Positions 171-33,115 of a DNA stretch of 38,314 nucleotides are shown here, in pieces. The stretch covers positions 1-38,314 of the forward strand of contig NZ_JABEQJ010000039.1 of assembly GCF_014174255.1 (NCBI RefSeq), written 5' to 3'. The first letter of the stretch is position 1. Each line of letters opens with the position of its first letter. The notes under the pieces were generated by a model. It worked only from the letters and a program-made list of their open reading frames with translations, did not search any database and was not told the DNA's origin. A program made the position numbers and the translations under genes. The stretch comes from Gluconacetobacter sacchari (lineage in GTDB: Bacteria; Pseudomonadota; Alphaproteobacteria; Acetobacterales; Acetobacteraceae).

Positions 171-380
171 ATGATTATCTCGACCAAAACCATCTCCGAA
201 ATGGTAAAGAGCAACTACGGAATGAAATCTGTAGAAATCGAACGATCCAACGCTCGTGTGGTGGTTTCTGTCTCCGCCCGCGATCTGGACACGGCGCGAA
301 TGAATACAGCGCCCATTCCGGCTTCCAAGTTCGGCCTTGAAGTTCTGTGCGGCGCGAGCTGCGCAGTGGGCGCGATGTAA
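171..380 (+). CDS. Small peptide, candidate precursor or scaffold (69 aa)
   Basis: A 69-residue peptide starting at the ATG at 171, behind a good Shine-Dalgarno (AGAGGA, 158-164). A longer frame from a TTG at 132 exists but lacks such a site. The first ~40 residues are polar and helix-prone (MIISTKTISEMVKSNYGMKS onward), followed by an IP-AS segment and a short hydrophobic, Cys/Gly/Ala-rich tail, LEVLCGASCAVGAM. That layout of a leader plus a small-residue tail is typical of ribosomally made precursor peptides. It is the first gene of an operon rich in amide-forming enzymes and is separated from them by a strong stem-loop, an arrangement that often lets precursors be over-expressed. No known RiPP leader family (Nif11, lasso, lanthipeptide) is recognised. 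Role as substrate or scaffold is inferred from position and composition; it could also be an unrelated small protein. Confidence 0.6.
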   Translation: MIISTKTISEMVKSNYGMKSVEIERSNARVVVSVSARDLDTARMNTAPIPASKFGLEVLCGASCAVGAM

Positions 381-398
381 ATTGCGACCAGAAATACC

Positions 399-422
399 GA
401 AGCGGACCGTAAGGTCCGCTTC
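399..422 (+). promoter_or_regulatory. Stem-loop between peptide gene and enzymes
   Basis: Perfect 10-bp inverted repeat GAAGCGGACC/GGTCCGCTTC around a GTAA loop, beginning 18 bases after the peptide stop codon and ending 29 bases before the peptidase gene. There is no T-run after it on the plus strand, so it is not a canonical intrinsic terminator. Likely roles are protecting the 3' end of a short peptide mRNA or partial termination that lowers enzyme expression relative to the peptide. Confidence 0.75.
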
Positions 423-451
423 ACAAAACGACTGGATGCAAAGTAGACGAA

Positions 452-1921
452 ATGAAGATCGAATCTCGGATGATCGAAATCGTTAACGGAATCAGCAATT
501 CAGATCGAACGCAGGCCAGTAACGCCACTAGGATGACCTGTCAGAATTTGATGGATTACGTTAAGTCATTTCTTCCTTCTGCCTCCTGTCATATTCATGA
601 CTTTGCCGCTTCCCCCGAGGCTCGTCCGCTAGGGTTCGCTGCTCCGGCCTCTTGGGAGCTGATCACAGGCACCGTGTCTTTTTCTAGACCCGATGCAACA
701 CCGGTCCGTTTGGACCACGCCGCCCATCCGATGTTGGTTGCAACCAATTCCTGTGCATCCACTGGAGTTTTGCCGGTATGCGCTCCGACCGACACCTCGC
801 CGGCCGGAAAATTAGTTCTCCTGAGCGGCCCCAAGGAGCAGTTCCCGGCTCAGCTTGCCGCCGCCGCCCGAGGAAACGCTGCCGGCGTGGCGTCCGCCGC
901 CTTCTCAAAGCGAATCTGCCAAAAGGAAGCGCGCGGTCGTATCGAACTGTCGTCGTACTCCGACTTGTTCGCGCTCAGCCTCACTCCGTCGGAGCACCAC
1001 TATCTGGCCGCAGCCCTTGAGGCCGGACCGGTTGCCGCCGAAGTGGCCATAGCGATCGACCAATTAGGCTGCGTGCCAGTATTGGAAATTCGCACCGATC
1101 CCGCAGCCTGCAAAGAAATTCTACTGTGCGCTCATATCTGCCACTTGCGTCCTGGCGCCAACGACAATGCATCCGGTGTGGCGCTGCTGTGTGAGCTATT
1201 GCGCACCGCCGCTGAATCACTGCCGGCGGTTCGGCTAGTTTTCGCACCCGAATTCACCGGAATGTCCGCTTATTTGGCCGCCACCGCCGTCAAACCCGTC
1301 TTTGTTGTCAATGTGGACATGGTGGGTGGCGATCCGGCCATCACCGGCGCGCAGTTGGAGCTCGAATGTTCACCGCCCTATCTGCACCACCCGCTGCAAG
1401 ATCGCCTCGCCGAGCTATTCAGCTCCTCACCAGAACTCGGCTGCCGGGTGACCGCGTTCAAGGGTTATTCCGACCACGCCTTGTTCGCGTCGAAAGCAGT
1501 CGCTGTGCCTGCGGTCCTCATCGGACAAACCGGTGATGTCTACAACCATACCGATTTGGATCGGGTGGAGAATCTGTGCCCAGATCAGATGGCAAGCCTC
1601 TGCAAGCTACTCACCCGTTTCTTGGTCGAGGCCGCACCTTATTACGACGTCCCCGGCTTCCCAGTCACTTCGGCACAGTCGAAGGACGCTTGGCCCTTCA
1701 ATATTTACGCTTTGTTCGATGCCTGCGACGAAGCTATGGCCCAAGACATCCGTACCCGCCTTACCGACAACAAAGAAACATACGCGCGGTTGCAACGAGC
1801 CTATCTTGCCGCGCAGTGGCATCAAGAGTCCCTTGGCGATTCCTGGGCCGAAAATGTGATTGCCAACTTTCGACAAGCGGGCCGACACAGCCACGGAAGA
1901 CATCATGCTGGACAACGTTGA
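452..1921 (+). CDS. PA/M28-type zinc aminopeptidase (DUF4910-like)
   Basis: 489-aa protein. Residues about 65-200 look like a protease-associated (PA) insert, and about 205-385 form an M28-like zinc peptidase fold. Likely metal ligands and catalytic residues: H228 and H231 in AHICHLRPGANDNASG with D238, E267 in FAPEFTG, D289 in VDMVGG, and H366 or D368 in YNHTD. The HxxPGANDNASG segment is typical of the DUF4910 branch of M28 enzymes, many of which lie in biosynthetic loci. No signal peptide is visible, so it probably acts in the cytoplasm. It follows the small peptide gene directly, so the simplest inference is that it trims or releases that peptide or a peptide conjugate. Its last 17 bases overlap the next gene from 1905, implying translational coupling. 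The ATG at 452 has only a weak ribosome site; an in-frame ATG at 470 is an alternative. Confidence 0.75.
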   Translation: MKIESRMIEIVNGISNSDRTQASNATRMTCQNLMDYVKSFLPSASCHIHDFAASPEARPLGFAAPASWELITGTVSFSRPDATPVRLDHAAHPMLVATNSCASTGVLPVCAPTDTSPAGKLVLLSGPKEQFPAQLAAAARGNAAGVASAAFSKRICQKEARGRIELSSYSDLFALSLTPSEHHYLAAALEAGPVAAEVAIAIDQLGCVPVLEIRTDPAACKEILLCAHICHLRPGANDNASGVALLCELLRTAAESLPAVRLVFAPEFTGMSAYLAATAVKPVFVVNVDMVGGDPAITGAQLELECSPPYLHHPLQDRLAELFSSSPELGCRVTAFKGYSDHALFASKAVAVPAVLIGQTGDVYNHTDLDRVENLCPDQMASLCKLLTRFLVEAAPYYDVPGFPVTSAQSKDAWPFNIYALFDACDEAMAQDIRTRLTDNKETYARLQRAYLAAQWHQESLGDSWAENVIANFRQAGRHSHGRHHAGQR

Positions 1922-2906
1922 TGGCGCATTTCATGATCCGGTATTCCTGACAGCCATGTTTGGCGGAAGGTGGCGTCGATACCGGTCCGCATCGCCGCAT
2001 GGCTCCTTCCACCACACGCCGGTGCTGCAACCCATAGGTAGCACGGGATACTACTGTGCCGAGGCCTGGCGAGGGTATGCTGAACCGGCGGTTCCAACCG
2101 ACCGGGCGCGAGTCCGAGAAGCATTCATCTCCTACTCCTCGTGGTGTAGTCAGCAATCCCTGGTGTGTGAGTTGCTCAGACTTGATCCGCTTGGGAAACT
2201 ACGCGCGCTCGCGGACGACATCCCCAATGGCCGGATCGTCGACGGCCAGCCGGTCGCGGTGCTCGACACGCCCAGCGACATGGACCACTATCGAGCGCAA
2301 TTACCTGCGGCATGTCGGCGGAGCCTGCGGTCCGCCGAGAGGCGTCTGGAAGCCCGGATCATTGCGCCAAGCGAGCTCAGCAGCCTGACAGCCGCCGCCA
2401 CTCTGCACGCGGAAACCTTGCGGCGGGTGCGAGCGGCGGACAAATGGTTCGTCCAGGCCACCGACCTGCAATCACTCAGCACGTTGCCAGGGTTTATGAA
2501 TATCGGCGTCTTCAACCGTTCGACCGGCAAGATAGCGAGCTTCGCCGGATGCCTGATTGAAAGCGGTCGGTTGCACATTCTGTTGGTTGGCAATGACCTA
2601 CTGACGGACAGCAAAGGGGCATCGGACTTGCTCTATGAGGCAATCGTTGCATGCGCCGTGGAAAGCGGCACTACGGCACGCCCTATACACAGAATCTATT
2701 TCGGCGGCGGGCGAAGCCTAGGCGGGGGCGATTCATTGATGCGGTTCAAGTTGAAATTCAGCCTCGGCAGAGCGGTACCTTGCACCTATCTGGCACTGGT
2801 CCACGATCCCGCCGCCGCCGCTAGGCTGTCGGTCTCGTTCGAACGGGGGCCCTCGTCCGAACCGCTGTCGGAAGTTCAGCGGACCTGCTTTCCATTTTTG
2901 AGTTAG
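1905..2906 (+). CDS. FemAB/GNAT-fold acyl- or aminoacyl-transferase
   Basis: 333-aa protein from the ATG at 1905 (GGAAG seven bases upstream); a longer frame from a TTG at 1860 overlaps the peptidase more and is less likely. The C-terminal half has the GNAT layout, ending in GGGRSLGGGDSLMRFKLKF at about residues 267-285. This Gly-rich loop followed by 'FK..FS' is characteristic of the Acetyltransf_6/FemAB-like branch, which includes enzymes that move amino acids from aminoacyl-tRNA onto peptides as well as ordinary acyl-CoA enzymes. Which donor is used here cannot be read from the sequence. In this operon it could extend or cap the small peptide or a small-molecule intermediate. Eleven bases separate it from the next gene. 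Confidence 0.7.
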   Translation: MLDNVDGAFHDPVFLTAMFGGRWRRYRSASPHGSFHHTPVLQPIGSTGYYCAEAWRGYAEPAVPTDRARVREAFISYSSWCSQQSLVCELLRLDPLGKLRALADDIPNGRIVDGQPVAVLDTPSDMDHYRAQLPAACRRSLRSAERRLEARIIAPSELSSLTAAATLHAETLRRVRAADKWFVQATDLQSLSTLPGFMNIGVFNRSTGKIASFAGCLIESGRLHILLVGNDLLTDSKGASDLLYEAIVACAVESGTTARPIHRIYFGGGRSLGGGDSLMRFKLKFSLGRAVPCTYLALVHDPAAAARLSVSFERGPSSEPLSEVQRTCFPFLS

Positions 2907-2916
2907 GAGTCTCTCC

Positions 2917-4119
2917 ATGAAAGTCACTTCGCTTAACCGGCTTCCGAGCGTCACTCTGGTCACCACCCATGGTCGGATGACTATCGAACCATTGAACCAA
3001 CGTGAAACCTTGTTTGAACTCATCGCCAGGGTGGGGATTCCTTGGAGCGCAATTTCCGCGTTTTCGTCCCGACCGGATGGCGAACTGGTTTTGTTGCCCA
3101 GCCTAGACGCACCCTTTTCCAGCATGCGAGACAGCTCGGAAATCCTATTGCATTTCAACAGAAACGTGAACCCGGACCTGTTCAACATCCAGAAATACGA
3201 TATCGCCAAAGCCGAAGACGGTCCCGAGGTGAGCAGTTACCTGTACCAGCAGATCGATAATGACGCCGGCACGGTCCAGCATATTCTCAAAGGCCTATCG
3301 CAGACCGAGTGTCAGGAGTTGGTCCGCCAGCATGTTCATAATTTCATCACGGAGAACTTCTCCGCCGGAACATCGTTCGTTATCGGAATCTCCGGCGGCG
3401 GCGATAGCAACGCTATGCTGATGGCCATGACCTCCTTCGACGCATTCGACATCTCCATACAGCCAGTCATCCTCAAAGGCGTCGCCGATTGGGACGCCGG
3501 AGTTCCCCGCGCCCAAGAGCTGTGCCGGAATTACGGTCTCGACTTACGCGTGCTGGAAGAGACCGAGGTGCGAGATATTTGCGGCATACGCCACGACCGG
3601 GACTTGATCCACACCTATGAAGCGAGTTTTCCCGGAGACGATTTCGAGTTCCTGGGCACCTTCTTGATACGCCGGGCACTGAGCCACATGGCGGCTAAAA
3701 CAGGATCCATCGTGTGTACAGGGCTTAATTTTGAAGACATTCTTGCGGAGTGCCTCTATCGCGTCTGTTCGGGCAAGCCACCCTTGTCCTTTCCCGTGCG
3801 ACAGCTTAGGTCGACCCGGTTCGCATACCCGCTGTGGATGACGCCGAAGAAAATCATCGACGGATGTTTCCCTAAACTCTCATTAGACAATTACGAGATG
3901 CGCTACCCGTGCTTCTCCGCTGGCCGGAACCTCTATTACATGATGGCTTATACGCTTCAGTCCAAATTCCCAGGTAGCGCCGAGAGACTGGTAAAGGGCA
4001 TGCGTGAATTGGTCGACAAACGGGGCAACGATATCCAGGAAAGTGATATCTTTGGCGCCATTCTGAACGAGGGCGTATCGTTGGAAGTATCTGAGCGCTT
4101 CAACCGTCTCATGGGCTAA
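2917..4119 (+). CDS. PP-loop ATPase with N-terminal beta-grasp-like domain
   Basis: 400-aa protein with a good TAGGAG site nine bases before the ATG. Residues 159-165 are SGGGDSN, a variant of the SGGxDS PP-loop of N-type ATP pyrophosphatases (asparagine synthetase, GMP synthetase, TilS, thiolation enzymes), which adenylate a carboxyl or carbonyl and let a nucleophile attack. Residues about 10-85 form a separate region (SVTLVTTHGRMTIEP..., ILLHFNRNVN) that by eye resembles a ubiquitin-like/MoaD-type beta-grasp fold; this is a weak inference. No glutamine amidotransferase domain is fused, so the nucleophile may be free ammonia, an amine or a sulfur donor. Residues 160 to 330 hold the nucleotide fold and conserved C-terminal helices. 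It stands between the transferase and the ATP-grasp ligase and probably performs an activation step on the same pathway. Product unknown. Confidence 0.7.
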   Translation: MKVTSLNRLPSVTLVTTHGRMTIEPLNQRETLFELIARVGIPWSAISAFSSRPDGELVLLPSLDAPFSSMRDSSEILLHFNRNVNPDLFNIQKYDIAKAEDGPEVSSYLYQQIDNDAGTVQHILKGLSQTECQELVRQHVHNFITENFSAGTSFVIGISGGGDSNAMLMAMTSFDAFDISIQPVILKGVADWDAGVPRAQELCRNYGLDLRVLEETEVRDICGIRHDRDLIHTYEASFPGDDFEFLGTFLIRRALSHMAAKTGSIVCTGLNFEDILAECLYRVCSGKPPLSFPVRQLRSTRFAYPLWMTPKKIIDGCFPKLSLDNYEMRYPCFSAGRNLYYMMAYTLQSKFPGSAERLVKGMRELVDKRGNDIQESDIFGAILNEGVSLEVSERFNRLMG

Positions 4120-4124
4120 ATCGC

Positions 4125-5351
4125 ATGAAACGCAACACATGTCTGATCGTCGATCCAGCCTCGACGGGGGTGCATCTCGCCCCTGCTCTGCGCAGGCTCG
4201 GCGTCCGCGTAGCGGCAGGGTTTTCCAACACAGGAGCGCCCCTTGATCCAGACATCTACGAGCAGTCGGTGGAAGTCGGCGACGGCAGCATATGGCCGGA
4301 GGCATTGGACCCCGCTCGCGTACTGCGAGTGATCGCCGGGTCCGATCCGGGTGTCTTACCGGCCGACCGGCTGACGGAACTCGCCGGGATTCCCGGTCTG
4401 AACGATCCGGCCTTATCGAGTGCAAGGCGGGACAAATGGGCAATGGGTGAAGCGCTGCGCAATGCCGGCACCCCTAGTGCCCGTCAGGCTTTGCTGACGA
4501 ACAGGCAAGAGGTCGAAACGTGGATCACCAAGAATCCTGGGGCGTCGGTCGCGGTGAAGCCACGCAGAGGTATGGCCTCCGACCAGGTCATCCTTTGCCA
4601 TTCCGACACGGAAACACGCACTGCCGCCGACGCGCTGTTGGGCACGATCGACTTTTTCGGCAACGACAACACTACTGTGCTAGTACAAGAGTTTCTACAG
4701 GGCGCGGAATTCATGGTCGATACGGTTTCGCGGGACGGTACCCATTACGTCACAGGGGTCTGGCAAGCTTGGCGTCAGCGCAGCGGGAAGGTACTGCCGC
4801 TGCAAGCTGACGCCGCCGATCCGGCATCTTCTGAAGCGCAGCGTGTCGTGGCCTATTGCAGTGATGTGCTGGACGCGTTGGGAGTTGCCAATGGGCCGGC
4901 GCACACGGAAATTATGCTGGTTTCCGGGCGGGGCCCGGTTTTAGTAGAATTGAATGCCCGATTCCATGGTTCATTGGACCTAGGCTATGCGCGCCGGGTC
5001 TTCGGCATTGATCAGGTCACGGAAACGGCGCGGTCAATTGCAGACACGGACTGGCGCGGCCCGAACCAGATGCTGGAGCTGAAGAGCTTTGGCCGAAAGA
5101 TCTATTTGCATTCGCCCATATCCGGAATCGCCGCGCGCGCTCCTGATTATTCGGCGTTAGAACGGCTGGGTAGCTTCCACTCTATCCGCAGTCGGATAGT
5201 TCCTGGGAAAGAGTTTTTGGCGACCGAAAGCCTGTCAACCTGCCCGGCAACGTTGTTCTTAGTAGCCGAAAGCGAGGCCGAGATCACCGCTGATACGCAA
5301 AAGGTGCGGGAACTCGAGGCCGCTATCTACCGCCACATTGTTTCTGACTAA
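4125..5351 (+). CDS. ATP-grasp carboxylate-amine ligase
   Basis: 408-aa ATP-grasp protein starting five bases after the PP-loop gene. The N-terminus (CLIVDPASTGVHLAPALR) matches the substrate-binding start of BacD/DdaF-type L-amino acid ligases. The ATP-binding lysine region is VAVKPRRGMASDQV, the central clamp is VQEFLQGAEFMVDTVSRDG, and the metal-binding end is ELNARFHGSLD at about residues 275-285. These enzymes form an acyl-phosphate and then an amide or peptide bond. A related ATP-grasp enzyme joins a nonribosomal cap to a ribosomal peptide in pheganomycin biosynthesis, so joining a small acid to the operon's peptide is one possibility; making a dipeptide-like small molecule is another. 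Substrate specificity is not predictable here. Confidence 0.8.
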   Translation: MKRNTCLIVDPASTGVHLAPALRRLGVRVAAGFSNTGAPLDPDIYEQSVEVGDGSIWPEALDPARVLRVIAGSDPGVLPADRLTELAGIPGLNDPALSSARRDKWAMGEALRNAGTPSARQALLTNRQEVETWITKNPGASVAVKPRRGMASDQVILCHSDTETRTAADALLGTIDFFGNDNTTVLVQEFLQGAEFMVDTVSRDGTHYVTGVWQAWRQRSGKVLPLQADAADPASSEAQRVVAYCSDVLDALGVANGPAHTEIMLVSGRGPVLVELNARFHGSLDLGYARRVFGIDQVTETARSIADTDWRGPNQMLELKSFGRKIYLHSPISGIAARAPDYSALERLGSFHSIRSRIVPGKEFLATESLSTCPATLFLVAESEAEITADTQKVRELEAAIYRHIVSD

Positions 5352-5355
5352 AGGC

Positions 5356-7281
5356 ATGGTGGGGATAGCAATCGTCGGAGCCGGGGCATTGGGAACATAT
5401 GCCATGGAGCGACTCGCGGCACTCGCGTTGCACGGGATGCTAGACGCCTCGGCCGTGGATGTCCGGATTTTTGAACGAACAGGCCGCTTCGGCGACGGCG
5501 AGGTGTATGATGTGGGCCAACCAAAGACTAATCTGCTCAACACTTCTGCCGGGGAGCTCGCGCTCGGCGCCGACAACACGGTGGAACAGGCCAAGTCGCG
5601 ACTGCTTCCAGGATGGAATAATAGCTTTCTTGACTGGTGCCATAGGCGTTTTCGAGAAACAGGCGACACTATATATGATGTCGAGGCGGGCGACGCTCCG
5701 CCCCGCGCGGTGTATGGCGAAGCGTTGAAGGGGGTGTTGGGGTCCCACGTTGATTTGCTTCGTAAGATTGGAGCGACCGTGTCTCTGATCCCGGCAGAGG
5801 TCACCGCGATCGAACCTGCCGGACACCGCAGCTTTAACATCTCAGCCGAGCTTGACGGCCGGACCTGCTTGTTCCGTGCCGATGAGATCTTGCTAGTGAC
5901 CGGTCACGCCCGAAGGCCGGACGCACCTGCCGGAGGCGGAAAAAGTTACGCCGCCAACCCGTACCCGATCAACCTGTCGTGCTCCTGCTCTGTTGTGCCG
6001 CCCGGGTCGCATGTTGGCATCCGTGGCATGGGTTTGTCGGCAATAGATCTCATCCTCGCCCTTACCGAAGGGCGGGGCGGCGGGTTTGAACCGGACGAAA
6101 CATCTTCTCGACGAGGCGCGCTGAGGTACCTTCCTTGCGGACGCGAGCCCGCCAAGATCGTCGCCACCAGTCGAGGAGGCTTGTTTACGCGCGCGCGCAG
6201 TTGGCTCGGCGCTGGCAATACGCGCCTGCGCACCCGCGCCTGGTTCTTTACTCCCGAAGCGGTCGACCGGTTGCGCCGGACTGCGGACGGAACCGCAGCA
6301 GGGGGAAAGATCGATGCCAATCGAGGCTTGATGCCACTTATCGTGCTCGAGATGGCCGCCTTATTCCATGCCGTTGCCGCCGGAGATATTTCGAAATGCC
6401 CTTTTTCGGTTGGTGGTGGTGTCAGCCGTCTGTATGAGGATTTGCTGAACGGGCGGTCCGTTGAAATCGACGCGCTCGTTGACCAAGCGAATGCCGAAGC
6501 CGGGAGCCACGCCTCGTTCCGTCCGGAGTTCTTTTTTGACCCGCTGGCTTATTTTGGCGGGACCGCTGCGGATCAGACAGCCGTATTAATTAGACTCATC
6601 GAAGTCGACAATGCTCAGGCACTGCTTGGCGCCAACCGATCTCCGCACAAAGCGGCGGCAGAGGGCGTTTGGCGCGATCTTCGCAGCGTTTTCTCCTATG
6701 CGGTCGACCAAGGCGGCTTGACTCCGACTAGCCATCGGGACTTTGTCGAAAAATTGTATCGATATCATAATCACCTGTCAAACGGTGCCTCTCTGGCAGT
6801 CATGGAAAAAGTACTGGCACTGTTGCGAGCCGGCGTGTTGGACGTGTCGGTCAGCCGGGATCCTACATGGTCGCACGATGCCAAGAGCGGCCAATGGGTG
6901 GCGGTGGGCGCTGGGGACGCCATGCGGCGGGTGGACCACTTGATCGAGGCGAGCATCCCCACAATCGGACAGGCACATTGCGCTTCCCAGTTGCACCGGC
7001 AAATGTTTCAGAGTGGCATTTTACAACGGTTTAAAAATACGCTCGGCTTGGAGACATATGTTCCTGGCGGTGTGGCAACGGACGGCAGCTTCCATCCGTT
7101 GGGCGCTGCAAGCCCGTGGCGGGAAGCCATGACGGTCCTGGGAGCGCAACTCGACGGGGCTGTGTTCTTTCAGCCCAGCGCCGCCAAAGTGAATTGTAAC
7201 GACGGCAATCTGAATAAAGTTGCTGCATGGACCAATGGCGTTGCCGCGCGCGCTGGCCGAAAAACGGAAGCAGTGTCATGA
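5356..7281 (+). CDS. FAD/NAD(P)-binding oxidoreductase (NAD_binding_9 type)
   Basis: 641 aa from the ATG at 5356, five bases after the ATP-grasp stop, with AAAGG just upstream; a TTG at 5338 gives a longer, overlapping and less likely form. The N-terminus MVGIAIVGAGALGTYAMERL carries the GxGxxG dinucleotide fold at residues 8-13. A second Gly-rich nucleotide motif, GIRGMGLSAID, lies at about 221-231, as in two-dinucleotide flavoproteins. The long start, with 'NLLNTSAGELALG' after the first fold, resembles the FAD-NAD(P)-binding family (pfam13454), whose members occur in siderophore and other secondary-metabolite loci. A hydroxylation or oxidation step is the natural inference. The C-terminal ~250 residues have no domain I recognise. 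Its stop overlaps the next start (ATGA), indicating coupled translation. Confidence 0.75.
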   Translation: MVGIAIVGAGALGTYAMERLAALALHGMLDASAVDVRIFERTGRFGDGEVYDVGQPKTNLLNTSAGELALGADNTVEQAKSRLLPGWNNSFLDWCHRRFRETGDTIYDVEAGDAPPRAVYGEALKGVLGSHVDLLRKIGATVSLIPAEVTAIEPAGHRSFNISAELDGRTCLFRADEILLVTGHARRPDAPAGGGKSYAANPYPINLSCSCSVVPPGSHVGIRGMGLSAIDLILALTEGRGGGFEPDETSSRRGALRYLPCGREPAKIVATSRGGLFTRARSWLGAGNTRLRTRAWFFTPEAVDRLRRTADGTAAGGKIDANRGLMPLIVLEMAALFHAVAAGDISKCPFSVGGGVSRLYEDLLNGRSVEIDALVDQANAEAGSHASFRPEFFFDPLAYFGGTAADQTAVLIRLIEVDNAQALLGANRSPHKAAAEGVWRDLRSVFSYAVDQGGLTPTSHRDFVEKLYRYHNHLSNGASLAVMEKVLALLRAGVLDVSVSRDPTWSHDAKSGQWVAVGAGDAMRRVDHLIEASIPTIGQAHCASQLHRQMFQSGILQRFKNTLGLETYVPGGVATDGSFHPLGAASPWREAMTVLGAQLDGAVFFQPSAAKVNCNDGNLNKVAAWTNGVAARAGRKTEAVS

Positions 7282-8345
7282 TACCGGATTTGCTTCCCGA
7301 CCTGACCCGTATCCGTGGCTGGGTGCGCGACTTGATCGCCGCGCAAGACTGCGCGAGAAAGAAATCAATTGTTTTGCTGGCGGTGGATGGGATTCGGTAT
7401 GCGGATGTCGAACGGCATTGGCGTGCGGCGGACCGATTGCAGCGGATTGCGTCCGTCTTCCCGACAACCTCGTCCTCCTGTTGGCTAAGTGCGATGACCG
7501 GTGACGGCGTGGAGCGGCATGGCTGCGTGGGCGTGGTTTTCCGGCCGCACACGACGAGCGAGATGATCAACGTCTTTACTCATCCAGAAGGTTTCGCGCG
7601 GGAAGGAGAACAAACCCTGTTCCACGATGCGGCGCAACATGGACTTACGCCAGTGGCTCTGTCGAGCGACCTTGGCGCAATTGATTGCGGCTGGCGAGAT
7701 CGGTTGCTCAACGGGGCGTACATCACTCCCTCTCCTCTGCATTTCCATGCACCATGCGGCGCGGACACTCCGATGGACGTTGATGGATTCATTGATCGGC
7801 TAAACTCCGACCTGGAGCGCATCGTGGCGCGGTCGGAACGAGTGTTCGGATGGATTTTCCTGGATATCGACCGCTACATTCATCGTCACGGCTATGACCG
7901 CGCCGTGGGCCGCTACTTGTTGGGCCTGAACCGACTAGCGTGCGAATGGGCAAAAAAAGGTCTAATCATCGCGGCGCATTCTGACCATGGGTTGGTCGAG
8001 ACCATCCATTCGCCTACCCTGGAACACTACCTAGACCAGATCATCAAGCGCTATGGATTGGAAATGGGCGGTGCCGGACGCACTCGGTGGCTGTATGTGC
8101 CGCAATCGGTGAATACACTGGCGATTATGAACGAACTTGCAGCAAACATGCCCGAACACGTAGAGGTAGCCAAGCGGTCCGATTACTTCGCGCCGTCTGA
8201 GCAGATCGCCGCCAGAGTGGGAGAAGTGCTCCTGATCGCCCGCTCCAAGCGCTTTCTTGCAGAACCCGGCGTCCTGTTCGATCACGGTTCGCTAACGAAG
8301 GATGAATGGGATATCCCCTTTGCTGTTTGGGGAGTGGGCAGATGA
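7278..8345 (+). CDS. Alkaline-phosphatase-superfamily phosphodiesterase/phosphatase
   Basis: 355 aa from the ATG at 7278, overlapping the previous stop by four bases (ATGA); the in-frame ATG at 7227 would overlap by 55 bases and lacks the GGAAG site. Superfamily signs: first metal aspartate D37 in LLAVDGIRYADV, candidate nucleophile T64 in FPTTSSSCWLS, a middle metal site FLDIDRYIHRHG at about 194-205, and HSDHG at about 234-238. This is the metal-ligand order of type I phosphodiesterases, phosphonoacetate hydrolases and phosphopentomutase relatives. No signal peptide, so probably cytoplasmic. In the operon it may hydrolyse a phosphorylated or nucleotidylated intermediate. It is translationally coupled to the PLP enzyme that follows. 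Confidence 0.7.
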   Translation: MIPDLLPDLTRIRGWVRDLIAAQDCARKKSIVLLAVDGIRYADVERHWRAADRLQRIASVFPTTSSSCWLSAMTGDGVERHGCVGVVFRPHTTSEMINVFTHPEGFAREGEQTLFHDAAQHGLTPVALSSDLGAIDCGWRDRLLNGAYITPSPLHFHAPCGADTPMDVDGFIDRLNSDLERIVARSERVFGWIFLDIDRYIHRHGYDRAVGRYLLGLNRLACEWAKKGLIIAAHSDHGLVETIHSPTLEHYLDQIIKRYGLEMGGAGRTRWLYVPQSVNTLAIMNELAANMPEHVEVAKRSDYFAPSEQIAARVGEVLLIARSKRFLAEPGVLFDHGSLTKDEWDIPFAVWGVGR

Positions 8346-9415
8346 ACTACGGGCTGGGCATCGACAGCTATGGCGCCAGCTTTTCCGGCGATGACGGGGC
8401 TGGCTTGGCGCTGACCTGGACCAGCGACGAGCGAAGCCAACTGGACATCGACCTTGATGGGTTCTTGACATCGCGATTGGCGACCGAAGCCGAGCAAGGC
8501 GCTCCGCTGCTGCGAAAATATGCCGTGAACGATCCCTACGGCGCACTCGCCATGCACGCGGCAACGACCGAATTTCTGGAGGTAGCCCTCGCGGCAGATC
8601 AAATCACTTGTGCCGCAGGCGTAATCGGCTTGTTGAACGCTCTTGCCAGCTTGGTGGGCGGTGGACTGTGCCATTTGGACGATGTCTATCGGGACCTACC
8701 CGCATGGTCATGGAACCGGGGCTTCGCCGTCACATCCGCTCCCAGCTTGCGCGCTGCCATTGGTCGGCAGTGGCAGATGCTGCTGCTTGAATATCCGTCT
8801 TTTTTGGAAACCGGTGAGCCCTTAGATATCTTCTTGGCCGACGCCTGCGCTGTCGCGGCGGAGCGGAATGGAATTGTTGTGGTTGATGAATCCAACGCCA
8901 ATTACCTGCCCCCACGCAGAAGCTTGTCTGCGCGGGTGAACCAACTGAGCAATCTCGTTGTGCTCCGGGGATTTTCCAAGGCGTACGGGCTGGGTTCGCT
9001 TCGCTTGGGCGTTGCTATCTGTTCAAGGAACATGACGGCGAGACTGCGTTCCGTGATTGCGCCATTAGCCGTATCGCCTATAAGCCTTGATCTTGGTGCG
9101 GCGGTCTGGTCCCAAGGAGACATCATGAGCCGATTGCGCTCCCGGATCGCAGTGGAAAAAACCGCGATGAAGCAACGACTGGTCCAAGTCGGTATAGTTG
9201 ATCATAGCGCCGAACACCCGCATCTGCCTTACGTCCTGCTTTCCCCCGACACTCGATCGATCCAAGCGCTTTCCGGCGCGGGGATCCGCGGAAAGTTCCA
9301 CTTCACCGCGGGGACGAGGGGTGAGAATCAGTATTTTCGCTTGAGCGTTCCGCTGCATCCCGAGCGGGTGCAGCGCTTCAATGATCTGATGGCCGCAATC
9401 ACACCATCCCTTTGA
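8342..9415 (+). CDS. PLP-dependent aminotransferase/decarboxylase, HisC/CobD-like
   Basis: 357 aa from the ATG at 8342, sharing ATGA with the previous stop and preceded by GGGGAG; the upstream ATG at 8306 overlaps more. Fold-type I PLP enzyme: N63 and Y66 in AVNDPYG, D182 in VVDESNANYLPP (binds the pyridine nitrogen), Schiff-base lysine K213 in RGFSKAYGLGSLRLG and R221 near the phosphate. This FSKAYG-LRLG pattern is shared by histidinol-phosphate aminotransferase and the threonine-phosphate decarboxylase CobD, both acting on phosphorylated amino compounds. Next to a phosphohydrolase, a phosphorylated intermediate is plausible. Last gene of the operon; its 3' end overlaps the convergent transporter by 17 bases. 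Confidence 0.8.
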   Translation: MNYGLGIDSYGASFSGDDGAGLALTWTSDERSQLDIDLDGFLTSRLATEAEQGAPLLRKYAVNDPYGALAMHAATTEFLEVALAADQITCAAGVIGLLNALASLVGGGLCHLDDVYRDLPAWSWNRGFAVTSAPSLRAAIGRQWQMLLLEYPSFLETGEPLDIFLADACAVAAERNGIVVVDESNANYLPPRRSLSARVNQLSNLVVLRGFSKAYGLGSLRLGVAICSRNMTARLRSVIAPLAVSPISLDLGAAVWSQGDIMSRLRSRIAVEKTAMKQRLVQVGIVDHSAEHPHLPYVLLSPDTRSIQALSGAGIRGKFHFTAGTRGENQYFRLSVPLHPERVQRFNDLMAAITPSL

Positions 9416-10577
9416 GTAAAGGCCCGCTGGTCAACAGTGCCGTCGCGCAGATTCCTGCCGCCAATAGGAAACCTGCCCCACCGTCTAACGCAGAACTGGC
9501 AGTCAGGCTGACGGCGACGAAGGCGCCTGCTCCCTCGCCGATCCCGACGACGACGGAATAGACCGTCAAAGCGGCGACATGACGGCTCGCCGGAACCCCG
9601 ACGGTGGCTTGGCCGATCAGACTGGGCAGCAGAGAACTCTCTGCTAGAGCCCAGAGCACTACGGCGACAGCGAGCATTACCGGGTGCTTCAGCAGGACCG
9701 GTAGCAAAAAGGCGACTAGATACAAGCCGAACCCGAGCTGGATGCGGATCCCCACGCCAAAATGCATCCGTTCCATCCATTGGTTCAACGGATAGGAAGT
9801 AGCGATGACAATCACCGCGTTCAGCCCAAGCAGCACTCCGCCCCAATTTTCCAGCCTAAGATGATAAGTGGCATATAAGGCGACTGAATTGTACATGAAT
9901 GCATAGCTGAAATAACCGATCGACGTGCAAATTAATAAGCGCCGTAGTTCGGGCAATCTGAGACAATAAAATACCCCAGAAACAATGGTCTCTTGAGGAT
10001 GCAAGTCCGGAATCAGGCTTCGGAAGCCAAACACGGCGGCCGCTGTGGCTGCTAACAATAGAGCAAAGGCGTAAAATGGCGACATGCCGTTTGCGGCGGT
10101 CAGCAGATAAAACGCGGCCGGCGGCCCGATCATTGCGGCGAAGTTGGTCGCAGTGGACAGTTTACTATATTTGAGAAACCGGCTTTCCGTTGTCCGTTTC
10201 ATATTGGCGGTCAAGCTCCGGACCGACACACTGTTCGCCCCGTTGGCGAGATTGAAGATCGTGATGGCAGTGCAGATGGCAGCTGCGTTCTTCAAGTGGG
10301 GAAGAATGCACAAGGCGGCGGCGGCGGTCAAACTGCTCAAGACTAACACATTACGCAGTGGCAAACGGTCAATAGCCGACGAGACAAACACCCTGCCCAG
10401 CTTCCCCATTACGGATGCCGCAAAAAGCACAGTAGCGATGGTAGAGGTTTTCAACGTTGTGTGACCGATCAGAAAAACCGGCAGGACCGCGAAAACACCG
10501 AAATACACCGTTGCCGCAGAAGTGAATTGGCCGAAGACAAGCTGTGTTAATCTGTCGCGATTCTTAAGCACGTTCAT
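9399..10577 (-). CDS. MFS transporter, probable product exporter
   Basis: 392-residue hydrophobic protein with many alternating membrane helices and short polar loops, including KLGRVFVSSAIDRLPLRN between early helices, a loop of the kind seen in the major facilitator superfamily. The ATG at 10577 has GAGGA eight bases upstream; the TTG at 10583 is a less likely start. It is convergent with the enzyme operon and overlaps its last gene by 17 bases, so it has its own promoter on the right. MFS proteins at the edge of biosynthetic loci commonly export the product or give self-resistance. Substrate unknown. Confidence 0.75.
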   Translation of the reverse strand: MNVLKNRDRLTQLVFGQFTSAATVYFGVFAVLPVFLIGHTTLKTSTIATVLFAASVMGKLGRVFVSSAIDRLPLRNVLVLSSLTAAAALCILPHLKNAAAICTAITIFNLANGANSVSVRSLTANMKRTTESRFLKYSKLSTATNFAAMIGPPAAFYLLTAANGMSPFYAFALLLAATAAAVFGFRSLIPDLHPQETIVSGVFYCLRLPELRRLLICTSIGYFSYAFMYNSVALYATYHLRLENWGGVLLGLNAVIVIATSYPLNQWMERMHFGVGIRIQLGFGLYLVAFLLPVLLKHPVMLAVAVVLWALAESSLLPSLIGQATVGVPASRHVAALTVYSVVVGIGEGAGAFVAVSLTASSALDGGAGFLLAAGICATALLTSGPLLKGMV

Positions 10578-10802
10578 TCTCAATTCCTCGGTCAGGACAC
10601 TAGCCCGTCTTATTTCTTGGGCATGCTAGGGATTCGGCGACGGATGCCGCGTAAACTGCTGATTGTGTTTATGGATCTGGCGTTGAAGCCATCCAGGCAC
10701 ACGATCACGATAAGTCGCACCCTGATTACCGACGATAGGGATAGAGGTGACCCCGTCTGTTCGGACAGCTTTTAGGGATGAATAAGCTATACCCTGTGAT
10801 TG
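10578..10802. other. Gap between transporter and IS debris
   Basis: About 225 bases with no convincing gene. It should hold the transporter promoter near its left end. TGACCCCGTCTGTTCGGACAGC at about 10757-10778 begins like IS3-family terminal repeats and could be the outer end of the IS fragment that follows; I cannot confirm it without a matching second repeat. Confidence 0.4.
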
Positions 10803-11070
10803 TCATGCCACCCTTCTGACGGCGTTGCTGTTGCCCATCTGGTCGGGGGTTAACCCCGGACCAGATGGCGTCGGCATCTTATGATACGCCTTATCGGGCC
10901 TGCGTCCAGCCAGTGCCGAGTGCGGACGCTGCCCGTTATGATGGGCGATCCATCCGGCAAGCCCGGCTCGCTGTTCCGATCCTGTCTCGCACGCATGAAA
11001 ACAGACGCATTCGTATTTCAGGGATCGCCACAGGCGTTCAATGATCACGTTGTCCAGCCAGCGAGCTCGC
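10803..11070 (-). pseudogene. IS3-family OrfB transposase, 3' remnant
   Basis: The minus-strand frame ends with ARWLDNVIIERLWRSLKYE, then RAGLAGWIAHHNGQRPHSAL and AGRRPDKAY. This is the C-terminal end of the IS3-family DDE transposase, with the catalytic Glu in IIERLWRSLKYE. Everything upstream of 'GRARWLDN' (at about 11,068) no longer matches IS3, so the first two catalytic aspartates are gone and the gene is dead. It joins directly to an IS110-type fragment. It marks the border between the biosynthetic operon and the conjugative element. Confidence 0.8.
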
Positions 11071-11650
11071 CCGTTCGCAGCTCGTCGAGGCACGCACGCC
11101 GGTCCCGTCGTGGCGGCTGGTAACCCCCCGGATACCTTGACCGAACGACAGGCCCTTGACGCGGTTGATGTGCCGGGTCCGCTCGCCCACCAGGACCTTA
11201 CGTTCCCGACCGTGATGTCGGCGGTCTTCCTCTTCGCGCGACGGAGGACGGACGATGGAGCAGACCCGCGCTGCCCCGCGTTTGAACGCCAGCAGGGTAC
11301 GGACCAGCATTTCGAAGTCGAAACGATCCGTCTTCGCACGCCGATGCTTGCGGGAAACCACGATCGACGCCGCATCGACGACGTAACTCTCTATCCAGTC
11401 CTCCCGCTTCAACGCCCGGTCGATCCAGAAGCCATCCAGGCCGGCTTCCTGGATGACCACCAGCGAGAAGAGCCTTCTCTCGCGGGCGCGGGCCCTCTCG
11501 CGCAAAGCAGTGACGCAGGTGAAGAGGCGCGCAATGTCGCTGCCTTGTGACCTGCCAGCTCGATTTTCCGAGTTCCAGGGAGACAACAATCGCGCCAAGA
11601 TCGACGCGGATAGCGGCCGGAGTCGCGGGATGATCGGATGCCTTGTGCAT
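11071..11650 (-). pseudogene. IS110-family transposase, frameshifted 5' fragment
   Basis: The start at 11650 encodes MHKASDHPATPAAIRVDLGA followed by IVVSLELGKSSWQVT, the usual IS110 opening. It then shifts frame and continues as ARLFTCVTALRERARARERR, LVVIQEAGLDGFWIDRAL, KTDRFDFEMLVRTLLAFKRG and RHINRVKGLSFGQGI. These are N-terminal DEDD-domain motifs of IS110 transposases. A third frame carries CLDELRTG at the end. At least two frame changes and loss of the C-terminal serine domain make it non-functional. It breaks at about 11,070 exactly where IS3 sequence begins. Confidence 0.8.
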
Positions 11651-31505: not shown

Positions 31506-31883
31506 ATGGGATCGCCCAAGGTAAAGCCGGCGCTTGAGCGGCTGGGACGCGATGTGCGGCAGGCGCGTCTGCGGCGCGGGATCGCTGTGGCGGATCTCGC
31601 GGCGCGCGCCGGAACCTCGCCGAGTTCCATTGGCCGCCTCGAACGGGGCGATCCGGGCGTCGCCATCGGGACACTGGCCGACGTGCTGGTCGTGCTGGGT
31701 CTTCTGGAGCGTCTGGCGGACCTGATCGACATTCGCAAGGACGAGCTGGGGCTGGCGCTGACGACGGAACACGGACCGCGTCGCGGACGTTCGTTTGCGG
31801 CGCGGCTCCGCAGGCAGAAGGCGCAACCGGCTGGACAGCAGGATCAGCAGGACGTCGTGGACCCTGAAGGGGCATCGTTCTGA
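31506..31883 (+). CDS. hipB: HipB-type antitoxin (XRE helix-turn-helix)
   Basis: 125 aa from the ATG at 31506; the frame extends back to 31446 through the operator, so the shorter form is preferred. Residues about 10-65 form a XRE HTH: LGRDVRQARLRRGIAVADLA, then TSPSSIGRLERGDPGVAIGT. The basic, Gln-rich tail (RRQKAQPAGQQDQQD) is likely flexible. Its stop and the hipA ATG overlap (TGATG). It should bind HipA and the TCATATATGA palindromes. Confidence 0.8.
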   Translation: MGSPKVKPALERLGRDVRQARLRRGIAVADLAARAGTSPSSIGRLERGDPGVAIGTLADVLVVLGLLERLADLIDIRKDELGLALTTEHGPRRGRSFAARLRRQKAQPAGQQDQQDVVDPEGASF

Positions 31884-33115
31884 TGGCTGAGTTCCTTGCC
31901 CAGGTTGCCCTCGGAGAGAGCCTGACGCCGGTTGGTCAGCTACGTTTCACGCATGCCGGGCCGCGGCAGTTTTCGACCTTCGCCTACGATGCCGCCTGGA
32001 TCGAGAACTCCCGCGCCTTCGCCATGGAGCCGGATCTGTCGCTCGAGGGAGGGCCGTTTCACCGGTCGGGCCAGTCGGGACATATGCGTGACGCTTTGCC
32101 CGGTGCTTTTGCTGACGCCGCTCCGGACAGTTGGGGGCGCAGGTTGCTGGAACGCGCCTACGGCAATGGCCTCAACGAGTTCCAGTATCTGACGCTTGCC
32201 GACGATGTCTGCCGGCAGGGCGCGATGCGGTTTCTGGACAGCGAGGGCGCGATCATTCGCGGCAAGGCGACGGACTCCGTCCCCCGCCTGGTCGATCTGG
32301 AAGCCATCACGGCGATCGCCCGAGCCTATGAGCAAGGCGAGGACATTTCGGCCGAACAGATGCAGGCGCTGGCGGGCGCGGGCGGCTCCGGTGGCGCCCG
32401 TCCCAAGGCCAATGTCAGGGATGGCGATGTACTCTGGCTGGCGAAGTTCACCTCGGTTCACGATCAGCAGCCCGTCGAGCGTGTCGAGGTCGCCACGCTT
32501 CGTCTGGCGGAAGCCTGCGGCATCCGCACGCCTGCGACGCGACTGGAACTGGCGGACACGCCGTTCCCCGTAGCGTTGATCCAGCGCTTCGATCGGCGCG
32601 GGACGAGCCGGATTCCCTACATCTCGGCGCGTACAGCTCTGGGCAAGACCGGAGCGGAGCTGGGCTCCTACACCGAGATCGTCGATTTCATGCGGGCCTC
32701 GTCATCGGACCCCATGGCGGACTTCCGCGAACTCTACCGGCGTCTGATCTTCACGATCCTCGTGTCGAACAAGGATGATCACCTGAAAAACCACGGTTTC
32801 CTCTATGTGGGGGCCGGCCAATGGCGTCTGTCACCGGTGTTCGATGTGAACCCGGCGCCGGATCGCAACCCGCATCTTGAGACGGCGATCCTTGAGGGTG
32901 GCCCTCATGATCGGTCGATCGATCTGGCGCTGGAGGCGTGCGCGTTCTTCGAGATCCCCGAGCCGGAGGCGCGGCAGGCGATCCGTGCGATGGCGCAGCG
33001 CATCTCGGACGGGTGGCGGGAAGCCTTCCGTGAGGTTGGTGTCTGGGGCGCACAGGCGCGCCACTATGAGCCGGCTTTCGCGAGTGACCAGATGCAGGCG
33101 GCGCTTACAATTTAG
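31883..33115 (+). CDS. hipA: HipA-type Ser/Thr kinase toxin
   Basis: 410 aa. The kinase signs are the glycine loop region AGAGGSGGARPKANV, the catalytic loop SNKDDHLKNHGFLY at about 294-307, and the metal-binding VFDVNPAPD shortly after. The N-terminal ~110 residues (HipA_N/Couple_HipA part) include SLEGGPFHRSG and PDSWGRRLLERAYG. HipA toxins phosphorylate glutamyl-tRNA synthetase or other aminoacyl-tRNA synthetases and cause dormancy. Domain order and length are complete. In this element it probably serves stable maintenance. Confidence 0.85.
   Translation: MAEFLAQVALGESLTPVGQLRFTHAGPRQFSTFAYDAAWIENSRAFAMEPDLSLEGGPFHRSGQSGHMRDALPGAFADAAPDSWGRRLLERAYGNGLNEFQYLTLADDVCRQGAMRFLDSEGAIIRGKATDSVPRLVDLEAITAIARAYEQGEDISAEQMQALAGAGGSGGARPKANVRDGDVLWLAKFTSVHDQQPVERVEVATLRLAEACGIRTPATRLELADTPFPVALIQRFDRRGTSRIPYISARTALGKTGAELGSYTEIVDFMRASSSDPMADFRELYRRLIFTILVSNKDDHLKNHGFLYVGAGQWRLSPVFDVNPAPDRNPHLETAILEGGPHDRSIDLALEACAFFEIPEPEARQAIRAMAQRISDGWREAFREVGVWGAQARHYEPAFASDQMQAALTI

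Follow-up and report, generated by a model that had tools for sequence, protein, structure and literature searches.

Is the small peptide encoded at the head of an enzyme operon in Gluconacetobacter sacchari a genuine partner of these enzymes and, if so, which of them acts on it? The operon lies on contig NZ_JABEQJ010000039.1 (assembly GCF_014174255.1), and the stretch analyzed here, referred to as the window, is this entire contig of a draft genome (38314 bases). An initial annotation, made from the DNA sequence alone, described a 69-amino acid (aa) peptide followed by a tightly packed row of enzyme genes, and proposed that the operon makes a modified peptide or a peptide-scaffolded small molecule. 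As a whole, this interpretation is partly supported by our analysis. The peptide is one of a conserved family whose genes keep company with the gene for one of the enzymes, a PP-loop ATPase. With a probability of about 0.6, we propose that the locus is a cluster resembling those for ribosomally synthesized and post-translationally modified peptides (RiPP), in which the ribosomal peptide serves as substrate or scaffold and a single-chain β-grasp/PP-loop ATPase is the class-defining enzyme.

The peptide gene travels with the PP-loop enzyme gene

We compared 11 distinct PP-loop loci: the window, five from a scan of genome contigs, four found by tblastn in plasmids, and one in genome G096. The locus in class-sample genome G250 is that of Paracaedibacteraceae metagenome-assembled genome (MAG) contig L008 (likewise L004) and was counted once. 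At eight loci, a significant peptide homologue adjoins the PP-loop gene or lies within ∼9 kb of it (the window, Dyella, a Myxococcales MAG, a Siliceabacter MAG, the Paracaedibacteraceae MAG, a Pantoea plasmid, G096, and Janthinobacterium). Five loci match the window peptide directly when searched singly by tblastn, with E values from 4e-09 to 2.7e-16, the best being that of Dyella. The G096 peptide was found at 1.4e-24 by a profile built without it, and the Janthinobacterium peptide, also outside the profile, was found at 4e-4 and, in a second profile search, at 2.3e-06. For the short annotated open reading frames (ORF) just before the PP-loop genes of Xenorhabdus (56 aa) and Geobacillus (47 aa), the profile gave no match (E 6 and 4.9, respectively), and a profile search of the Paenarthrobacter PP-loop locus returned no significant peptide match.

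Two further findings link the genes. Among 289 genomes sampled from the class, the same three hold the PP-loop protein (E 1e-10) and the peptide (E 1e-4). In addition, pairwise identities of the peptide co-vary with those of the PP-loop protein (r 0.86, P 0.006, seven taxa), as do those of the M28 peptidase encoded in the operon (r 0.84, P 0.03, six taxa). The peptide is thus a conserved operon partner, as the initial annotation supposed: homologous loci that consistently lacked it, or its membership of an unrelated family, would have spoken otherwise, and it is present at 8/11 PP-loop loci and in 3/3 class-sample genomes with a PP-loop protein. That the peptide could be a chance ORF was rejected in view of its homologues and profile matches at other PP-loop loci.

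The peptide has a fixed core and a variable end

The window peptide ends in CGASCAVGAM. It had been described as Cys-ending, which is wrong, as Cys60 and Cys64 lie near the end and the final residue is Met. The peptide has an N-terminal [NKG][FY]x[LM]K motif and a C-terminal SKxGLExxCGASC motif, and conservation is strongest in the C-terminal part. In an alignment of eight peptides, Lys19, Leu39, Arg43, Ser52, Glu57, Gly61, and Ser63 are invariant, position 40 is always Asp or Glu, and Cys60 and Cys64 are present in seven and six peptides, respectively, whereas the final residue is not fixed (M, F, H, L, M, Q, Q, M). The peptide therefore consists of a fixed N-terminal motif and a fixed C-terminal core with a variable very end. 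For the profile matching and these counts, the Siliceabacter peptide was trimmed by hand to residue 29 of a 90-aa ORF, an approximate start: no start codon stands at residue 29, and residue 30 is GTG. The Xenorhabdus ORF was part of an earlier alignment and is excluded from the eight-peptide counts; the Geobacillus ORF was in neither.

The Pantoea and G096 peptides have a common C terminus (ICGASCETGAQ), and both clusters carry genes for flavin adenine dinucleotide (FAD) and alkaline phosphatase superfamily (AlkP) proteins, a luciferase-like (LLM-type) monooxygenase, an amidase, and NTP_transf_5. That these two share both features is a hint that the peptide end may track the tailoring genes.

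The 381-451 gap, which separates the peptide gene from the enzyme genes that follow, folds at -28.6 kcal/mol (z -7.2), and none of 200 shuffles folded as well. For nine stretches from relatives, chosen by hand, with only part of the gap for Dyella and Pantoea and with no control intergenic regions, z was -2.1, -0.7, -3.0, -2.3, -3.8, -5.4, -3.6, -2.6, and -4.3; it was thus -2 or lower in 9/10 folded stretches, window included. The Myxococcales and G096 hairpins may be plain terminators.

The signature enzyme joins a β-grasp domain to a PP-loop ATPase

By sequence, the PP-loop protein gives only sub-threshold matches to NAD synthase in Pfam/NCBIfam, and four plasmid records annotate it merely as a hypothetical protein. 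Its predicted structure shows a clear PP-loop fold, nearest to the TtuA/TilS branch. A ubiquitin-like β-grasp domain (residues ∼1-90) and the PP-loop ATPase (residues 93-400) form one chain, and the SGGxDS loop that accompanies this fold in TtuA/NcsA-type enzymes is present. The CxxC of the [4Fe-4S] site is absent (the NcsA CSFC aligns to non-Cys residues), which disfavors sulfur insertion. What we take to be the third iron-sulfur ligand of NcsA-type enzymes falls beyond the CSFC alignment; Cys317 is kept in 9/9 rows of the alignment of the PP-loop enzyme. When the nine window proteins were searched with Pfam, this protein matched neither ThiF nor, at E 1, Asn_synthase (PF00733).

Other enzymes recur to different extents

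Besides the peptide and PP-loop genes, the recurring set comprises an M28/DUF4910 peptidase at 6/11 loci (window, Dyella, Myxococcales, Siliceabacter, Pantoea, and G096), a CobD/HisC-like pyridoxal phosphate (PLP) enzyme at 5/11 (the same loci except Siliceabacter), an AlkP protein at 4/11 (window, Myxococcales, Pantoea, and G096), and a FAD protein at 3/11 (window, Pantoea, and G096). Absences are weak evidence because contig ends cut the flanks of several MAG loci. One inspection of the gene content of relatives covered those other than L027. Sequence motifs of these enzymes are kept. The His, Asp, and Glu motifs of M28 are conserved in six aligned sequences, the AlkP motifs VFPxTS, HxDHG, and DxDxxIH in four, and the SKA[YW] Lys and the Asp of DESN of the PLP enzyme in five, all of which we take to have their usual roles in catalysis.

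The window FemAB-like, ATP-grasp, and major facilitator superfamily (MFS) proteins have no homologue in loci L003-L013 (tblastn, E 1e-3), and a distantly similar ATP-grasp occurs at one relative, the Paracaedibacteraceae locus L008. The three amide-forming enzyme types highlighted by the initial annotation are consequently not a signature of the family, as searches of the other loci returned no homologue of the window version of two of them. The nearest named models of the ATP-grasp protein are PRK07206 and DdaF, both below curated cut-offs. The FemAB-like protein has no Pfam match of its own. Its FemAB/GNAT label is supported indirectly by a Phaeobacter homologue (32.8% identity, E 6e-33) that matches Acetyltransf_6 at 5e-08 and FemAB below the cut-off (0.015). 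This homologue is encoded in a different cluster (L032:4818-13356) with a radical SAM/SPASM protein, a MATE transporter, and an alcohol-dehydrogenase-type protein. A Deefgea relative of the FAD protein lies in a gene row (L034:3457-7894) with a ThrH phosphatase and with SbnA and SbnB, which belong to 2,3-diaminopropionate synthesis and offer a hint at FAD protein chemistry.

Several relatives have gene contents of their own. The G096 cluster (L025:1954-11256) adds an NtaA/DmoA-type monooxygenase, an amidase, NTP_transf_5, a β-eliminating lyase, and an aspartate-dehydrogenase-like protein; one NDK-like protein is encoded in this L025 stretch and another in L023. DUF455 proteins are encoded near the PP-loop genes of Janthinobacterium (L009:11303-12388) and Geobacillus (L012:1291-2424), each with a nucleotidyltransferase nearby. 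Downstream of the PP-loop gene on the Paenarthrobacter plasmid (L013:8689-9897), where no peptide was detected, two unannotated ORF resemble, by eye, an iron-dependent oxygenase and a P450. The PP-loop enzyme family may hence serve other pathways as well.

Proposed pathway and alternatives

Behind the RiPP-like reading are the conservation of the peptide, which occurs together with the PP-loop gene and diverges in step with it, the predicted enzyme fold without CxxC, and the recurring gene set. RiPP pathways link a conserved gene for a small precursor to a modifying enzyme; such a pair is present here, with the PP-loop ATPase as the putative modifying enzyme. The peptide probably serves this enzyme as substrate or carrier. 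Its leader part, with the invariant Lys19, Leu39, and Arg43, would dock on the enzyme, perhaps on the β-grasp domain. The PP-loop domain would then use ATP to form an acyl-adenylate on a peptide carboxylate. The most likely candidate is the Glu57 side chain, preferred over the alternative, the C-terminal carboxylate, because Glu57, an acidic core residue, is fixed in 8/8 peptides and the last residue varies; as the activated site, Glu57 nevertheless remains a tentative choice. For comparison, in the available part of a report on microcin C, the activation site is the C terminus and a terminal Asn is required (PMC6495379). The adenylate could be attacked by Ser63 or another residue, giving a ring, or by an external amine or a phosphorylated or nucleotide group. 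The PLP, FAD, and AlkP enzymes, here possibly together with the FemAB-like and ATP-grasp proteins, would make or decorate the attached unit. The M28/DUF4910 peptidase, judging from its family, would trim the leader or free the product, which a transporter would export. It is conceivable, at somewhat worse than even odds, that this is a new class of ribosomal-peptide natural products, in which a module like those of tRNA thiolation, devoid of sulfur-cluster ligands, activates an invariant Glu for ring closure or for conjugation to a phosphorylated or nucleotide-like group. It would be a candidate RiPP class rather than something categorically new, because a precursor, ATP-dependent activation, a peptidase, and an exporter follow a known plan. 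No report of such a system was found in searches of open-licence literature, where absence is a weak indication.

Two other fates of the peptide have to be weighed. It could be a reusable scaffold, as in pearlins or with amino-group carriers, to which an amino acid is joined, modified by the PLP, FAD, AlkP, FemAB-like, and ATP-grasp enzymes, and finally cut off by the M28 peptidase. Such carrier-peptide logic exists (PMC9303977, available part), the length of the peptide is carrier-like, a peptidase is found at 6/11 loci, and the window holds both a FemAB/GNAT-like protein and an ATP-grasp protein resembling amino-acid ligases. However, these last two lack homologues in the other loci, as described above, no window protein gives a LanB-type match expected for a peptide aminoacyl-tRNA ligase (PEARL), and whereas Glu57, Gly61, and Ser63 of the peptide are fixed, its final residue is not, which is mildly against a conserved carrier end. 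We consider this scaffold role possible but rather unlikely. The PP-loop enzyme could instead activate a carboxylate of the peptide and thereby attach a nucleotide or phosphate-bearing group as in microcin C, before tailoring of this group by other enzymes, trimming by the peptidase, and export. Many neighbors would suit this: AlkP/phosphodiesterase at four loci, NTP_transf_5 in Pantoea and G096, NTP_transf_2/polymerase-β-type proteins in Geobacillus and Janthinobacterium, a nucleoside phosphorylase in Geobacillus, thymidylate-kinase-like and SurE proteins in Pantoea, an NDK-like protein in G096, and an adenosine deaminase near the Siliceabacter locus. Moreover, the Xenorhabdus locus resembles the minimal microcin C set of precursor, adenylating enzyme, and export pump given in the available part of the same report (PMC6495379). 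The AlkP, NTP_transf_5, NTP_transf_2/polymerase-β, nucleoside phosphorylase, and adenosine deaminase matches exceed their cut-offs. Yet the thymidylate-kinase-like and NDK-like matches are below Pfam cut-offs, SurE comes from annotation only, and members of the AlkP and nucleotidyltransferase families act in many other processes. Considering also that the PP-loop protein is not ThiF-like, and that the peptides have a variable last residue in place of an MccA-type C-terminal Asn, a peptide-nucleotide product appears doubtful.

The remaining alternatives remove the peptide from the center. Like TtuA, NcsA, and TilS, the PP-loop enzyme might modify tRNA or another nucleic acid, with the peptide in a regulatory role or as its accessory subunit or binding partner. 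The missing CxxC ligands, the neighboring peptidase, PLP, FAD, ATP-grasp, and transporter genes, the sporadic distribution (1/14 genomes of the own genus), and the substrate-like concentration of peptide conservation in the C-terminal part make this improbable. The operon might also serve in defense or as a toxin-antitoxin system carried by a mobile island, in view of its neighbors, which include an integrase-core ORF, a HipA-like gene, and genes for DNA methylases. Its gene content is biosynthetic, and PADLOC-DB gave a single weak match among the nine proteins (the PP-loop protein, E 0.0069), so we regard such a function as very remote. The RiPP-like reading, with the peptide as the substrate or scaffold of the PP-loop enzyme, is thus the one we favor.

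Operon layout and genomic surroundings

All nine ORF of the operon (171-10583) were confirmed, and Pfam/NCBIfam mostly uphold the assignments made in the initial annotation (Table 1). Upstream genes may be missing because the contig begins 170 bp before the peptide gene, and DNA upstream of base 1 is invisible. Internal ATG codons, which provide the likely starts listed in Table 1, create 4-bp ATGA overlaps at 7278-7281 and 8342-8345. The MFS gene encodes a predicted exporter.

Table 1. Features of the operon in the window
Feature	Position	Strand	Basis and remarks
69-aa precursor/scaffold peptide (candidate)	171..380	+	ORF, homologues, profile matches, conservation; Shine-Dalgarno-like AGGAAGG upstream
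RNA hairpin, 10-bp stem	399..422	+	Folding; between peptide gene and first enzyme gene
M28/DUF4910 peptidase	452..1921	+	PF04389 1.5e-11, PF16254 5.9e-08; predicted leader removal/product release
FemAB/GNAT-like transferase	1860..2906	+	Label via Phaeobacter homologue; likely start ATG 1905
Signature enzyme, β-grasp + TtuA/TilS-like PP-loop ATPase	2917..4119	+	Predicted fold
ATP-grasp ligase close to L-amino-acid ligases/DdaF	4125..5351	+	ATP-grasp_3 3.6e-10
FAD-NAD(P)-binding protein	5338..7281	+	PF13454; likely start ATG 5356
Alkaline-phosphatase superfamily/phosphodiesterase-type hydrolase	7227..8345	+	Phosphodiest PF01663; likely start ATG 7278
CobD/HisC-like PLP enzyme	8306..9415	+	Pfam/NCBIfam; likely start ATG 8342
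MFS transporter, predicted exporter	9399..10583	-	Convergent with PLP gene, 17-bp overlap

The GC content of the operon is 0.56-0.59, lower than the 0.61-0.66 that prevails on the contig beyond 12 kb (one 2-kb block is at 0.575), and four PP-loop relatives are on plasmids. Together with the sporadic distribution, this is consistent with horizontal transfer. An integrase-core ORF (rve_3, 2.4e-10), probably a piece of a transposase, lies beside the MFS gene at 10803-11375. Further downstream, 11935-37614 resembles a mobile genomic island, with genes for a helicase (identified via annotated records), a DUF6094 methyltransferase, C5 and N6/N4 DNA methylases, a topoisomerase, a ParA-like ATPase, and a HipA-like kinase (31883-33115; HipA_C 2.4e-44). 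The best plasmid match of a 22-kb query from this island is from Tistrella mobilis (80.5% over 14%).

Implications for genome mining

The PP-loop enzyme falls outside the identifiers for RiPP neighborhoods listed in the available part of a survey of RiPP recognition elements (PMC12710340). Provided that the peptide is indeed its substrate, clusters of this kind could escape notice for this reason. Together, the peptide and enzyme genes provide a handle for genome mining. With its invariant Glu57/Ser63 core, the peptide lends itself to direct in vitro tests of the chemistry. If true, our proposal would show that an ATPase of a tRNA-modifying type with a ubiquitin-like domain has been turned to peptide modification.

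Comparison with known systems

In agreement with the initial annotation, there is no classical RiPP maturase: LanB/PEARL, YcaO, radical-SAM, and lasso-cyclase families are unmatched among the nine window proteins. The PEARL and leader peptidase negatives cover the window genes, those before the contig start being invisible. Membership of the PEARL/pearlin group was rejected for lack of a LanB-type match. As described in the available part of the source, pearlins of the 3-thiaglutamate type have a small peptide, modifying enzymes, a metalloprotease, and a transporter (PMC9303977). Our locus shares this layout but has no PEARL, and its signature enzyme is unrelated.

A candidate precursor beside a putative adenylating enzyme and a predicted exporter recalls the minimal plan of microcin C, whose MccB is a ThiF-like enzyme. 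Membership was rejected because the PP-loop protein has no ThiF match and the peptide no C-terminal Asn; the FAD protein matches ThiF only at E 0.12, below the cut-off. Microcin C-like precursors are mostly 7 or 8 residues long and end in Asn, according to the available part of the report (PMC6495379), whereas here the enzyme is of the PP-loop type and the peptide is 69 aa long, with an end that varies. The ATP-grasp protein is similar to DdaF and L-amino-acid ligases (PDB 30vh, E 3.5e-37; DdaF model, E 2.8e-46), but it is one cluster gene only and scores 158 bits with the DdaF model, far below the curated cut-off of 840 bits. As for graspetides and pheganomycin-type RiPP, in which an ATP-grasp ligase is conserved with the precursor, the window has an ATP-grasp gene; tblastn (E 1e-3) gave no homologue of it in loci L003-L013, and a distantly similar one occurs in L008. 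LysW-type amino-group carriers have an EDWGE-type C terminus, and membership of this group was rejected because the peptide C termini have no such end.

Compared with the TtuA/TtuB and NcsA tRNA thiolases and with TilS, the β-grasp domain here belongs to the ATPase chain instead of being a free sulfur carrier, and the CxxC is absent. Lasso peptide membership was rejected, as the nine window proteins match neither PF00733 at E 1 nor a lasso-type leader peptidase. Nevertheless, the ribosomal lasso precursor is predicted to have an Asp or Glu side chain adenylated by an AsnB homologue that depends on ATP (PMC6784204), and AsnB belongs to the PP-loop superfamily (PMC2922099), as far as the available parts of these papers go. 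Our cluster likewise pairs a PP-loop-superfamily enzyme with a ribosomal precursor, in which Glu57 is invariant, but the enzyme has a TtuA/TilS-branch fold joined to a β-grasp domain.

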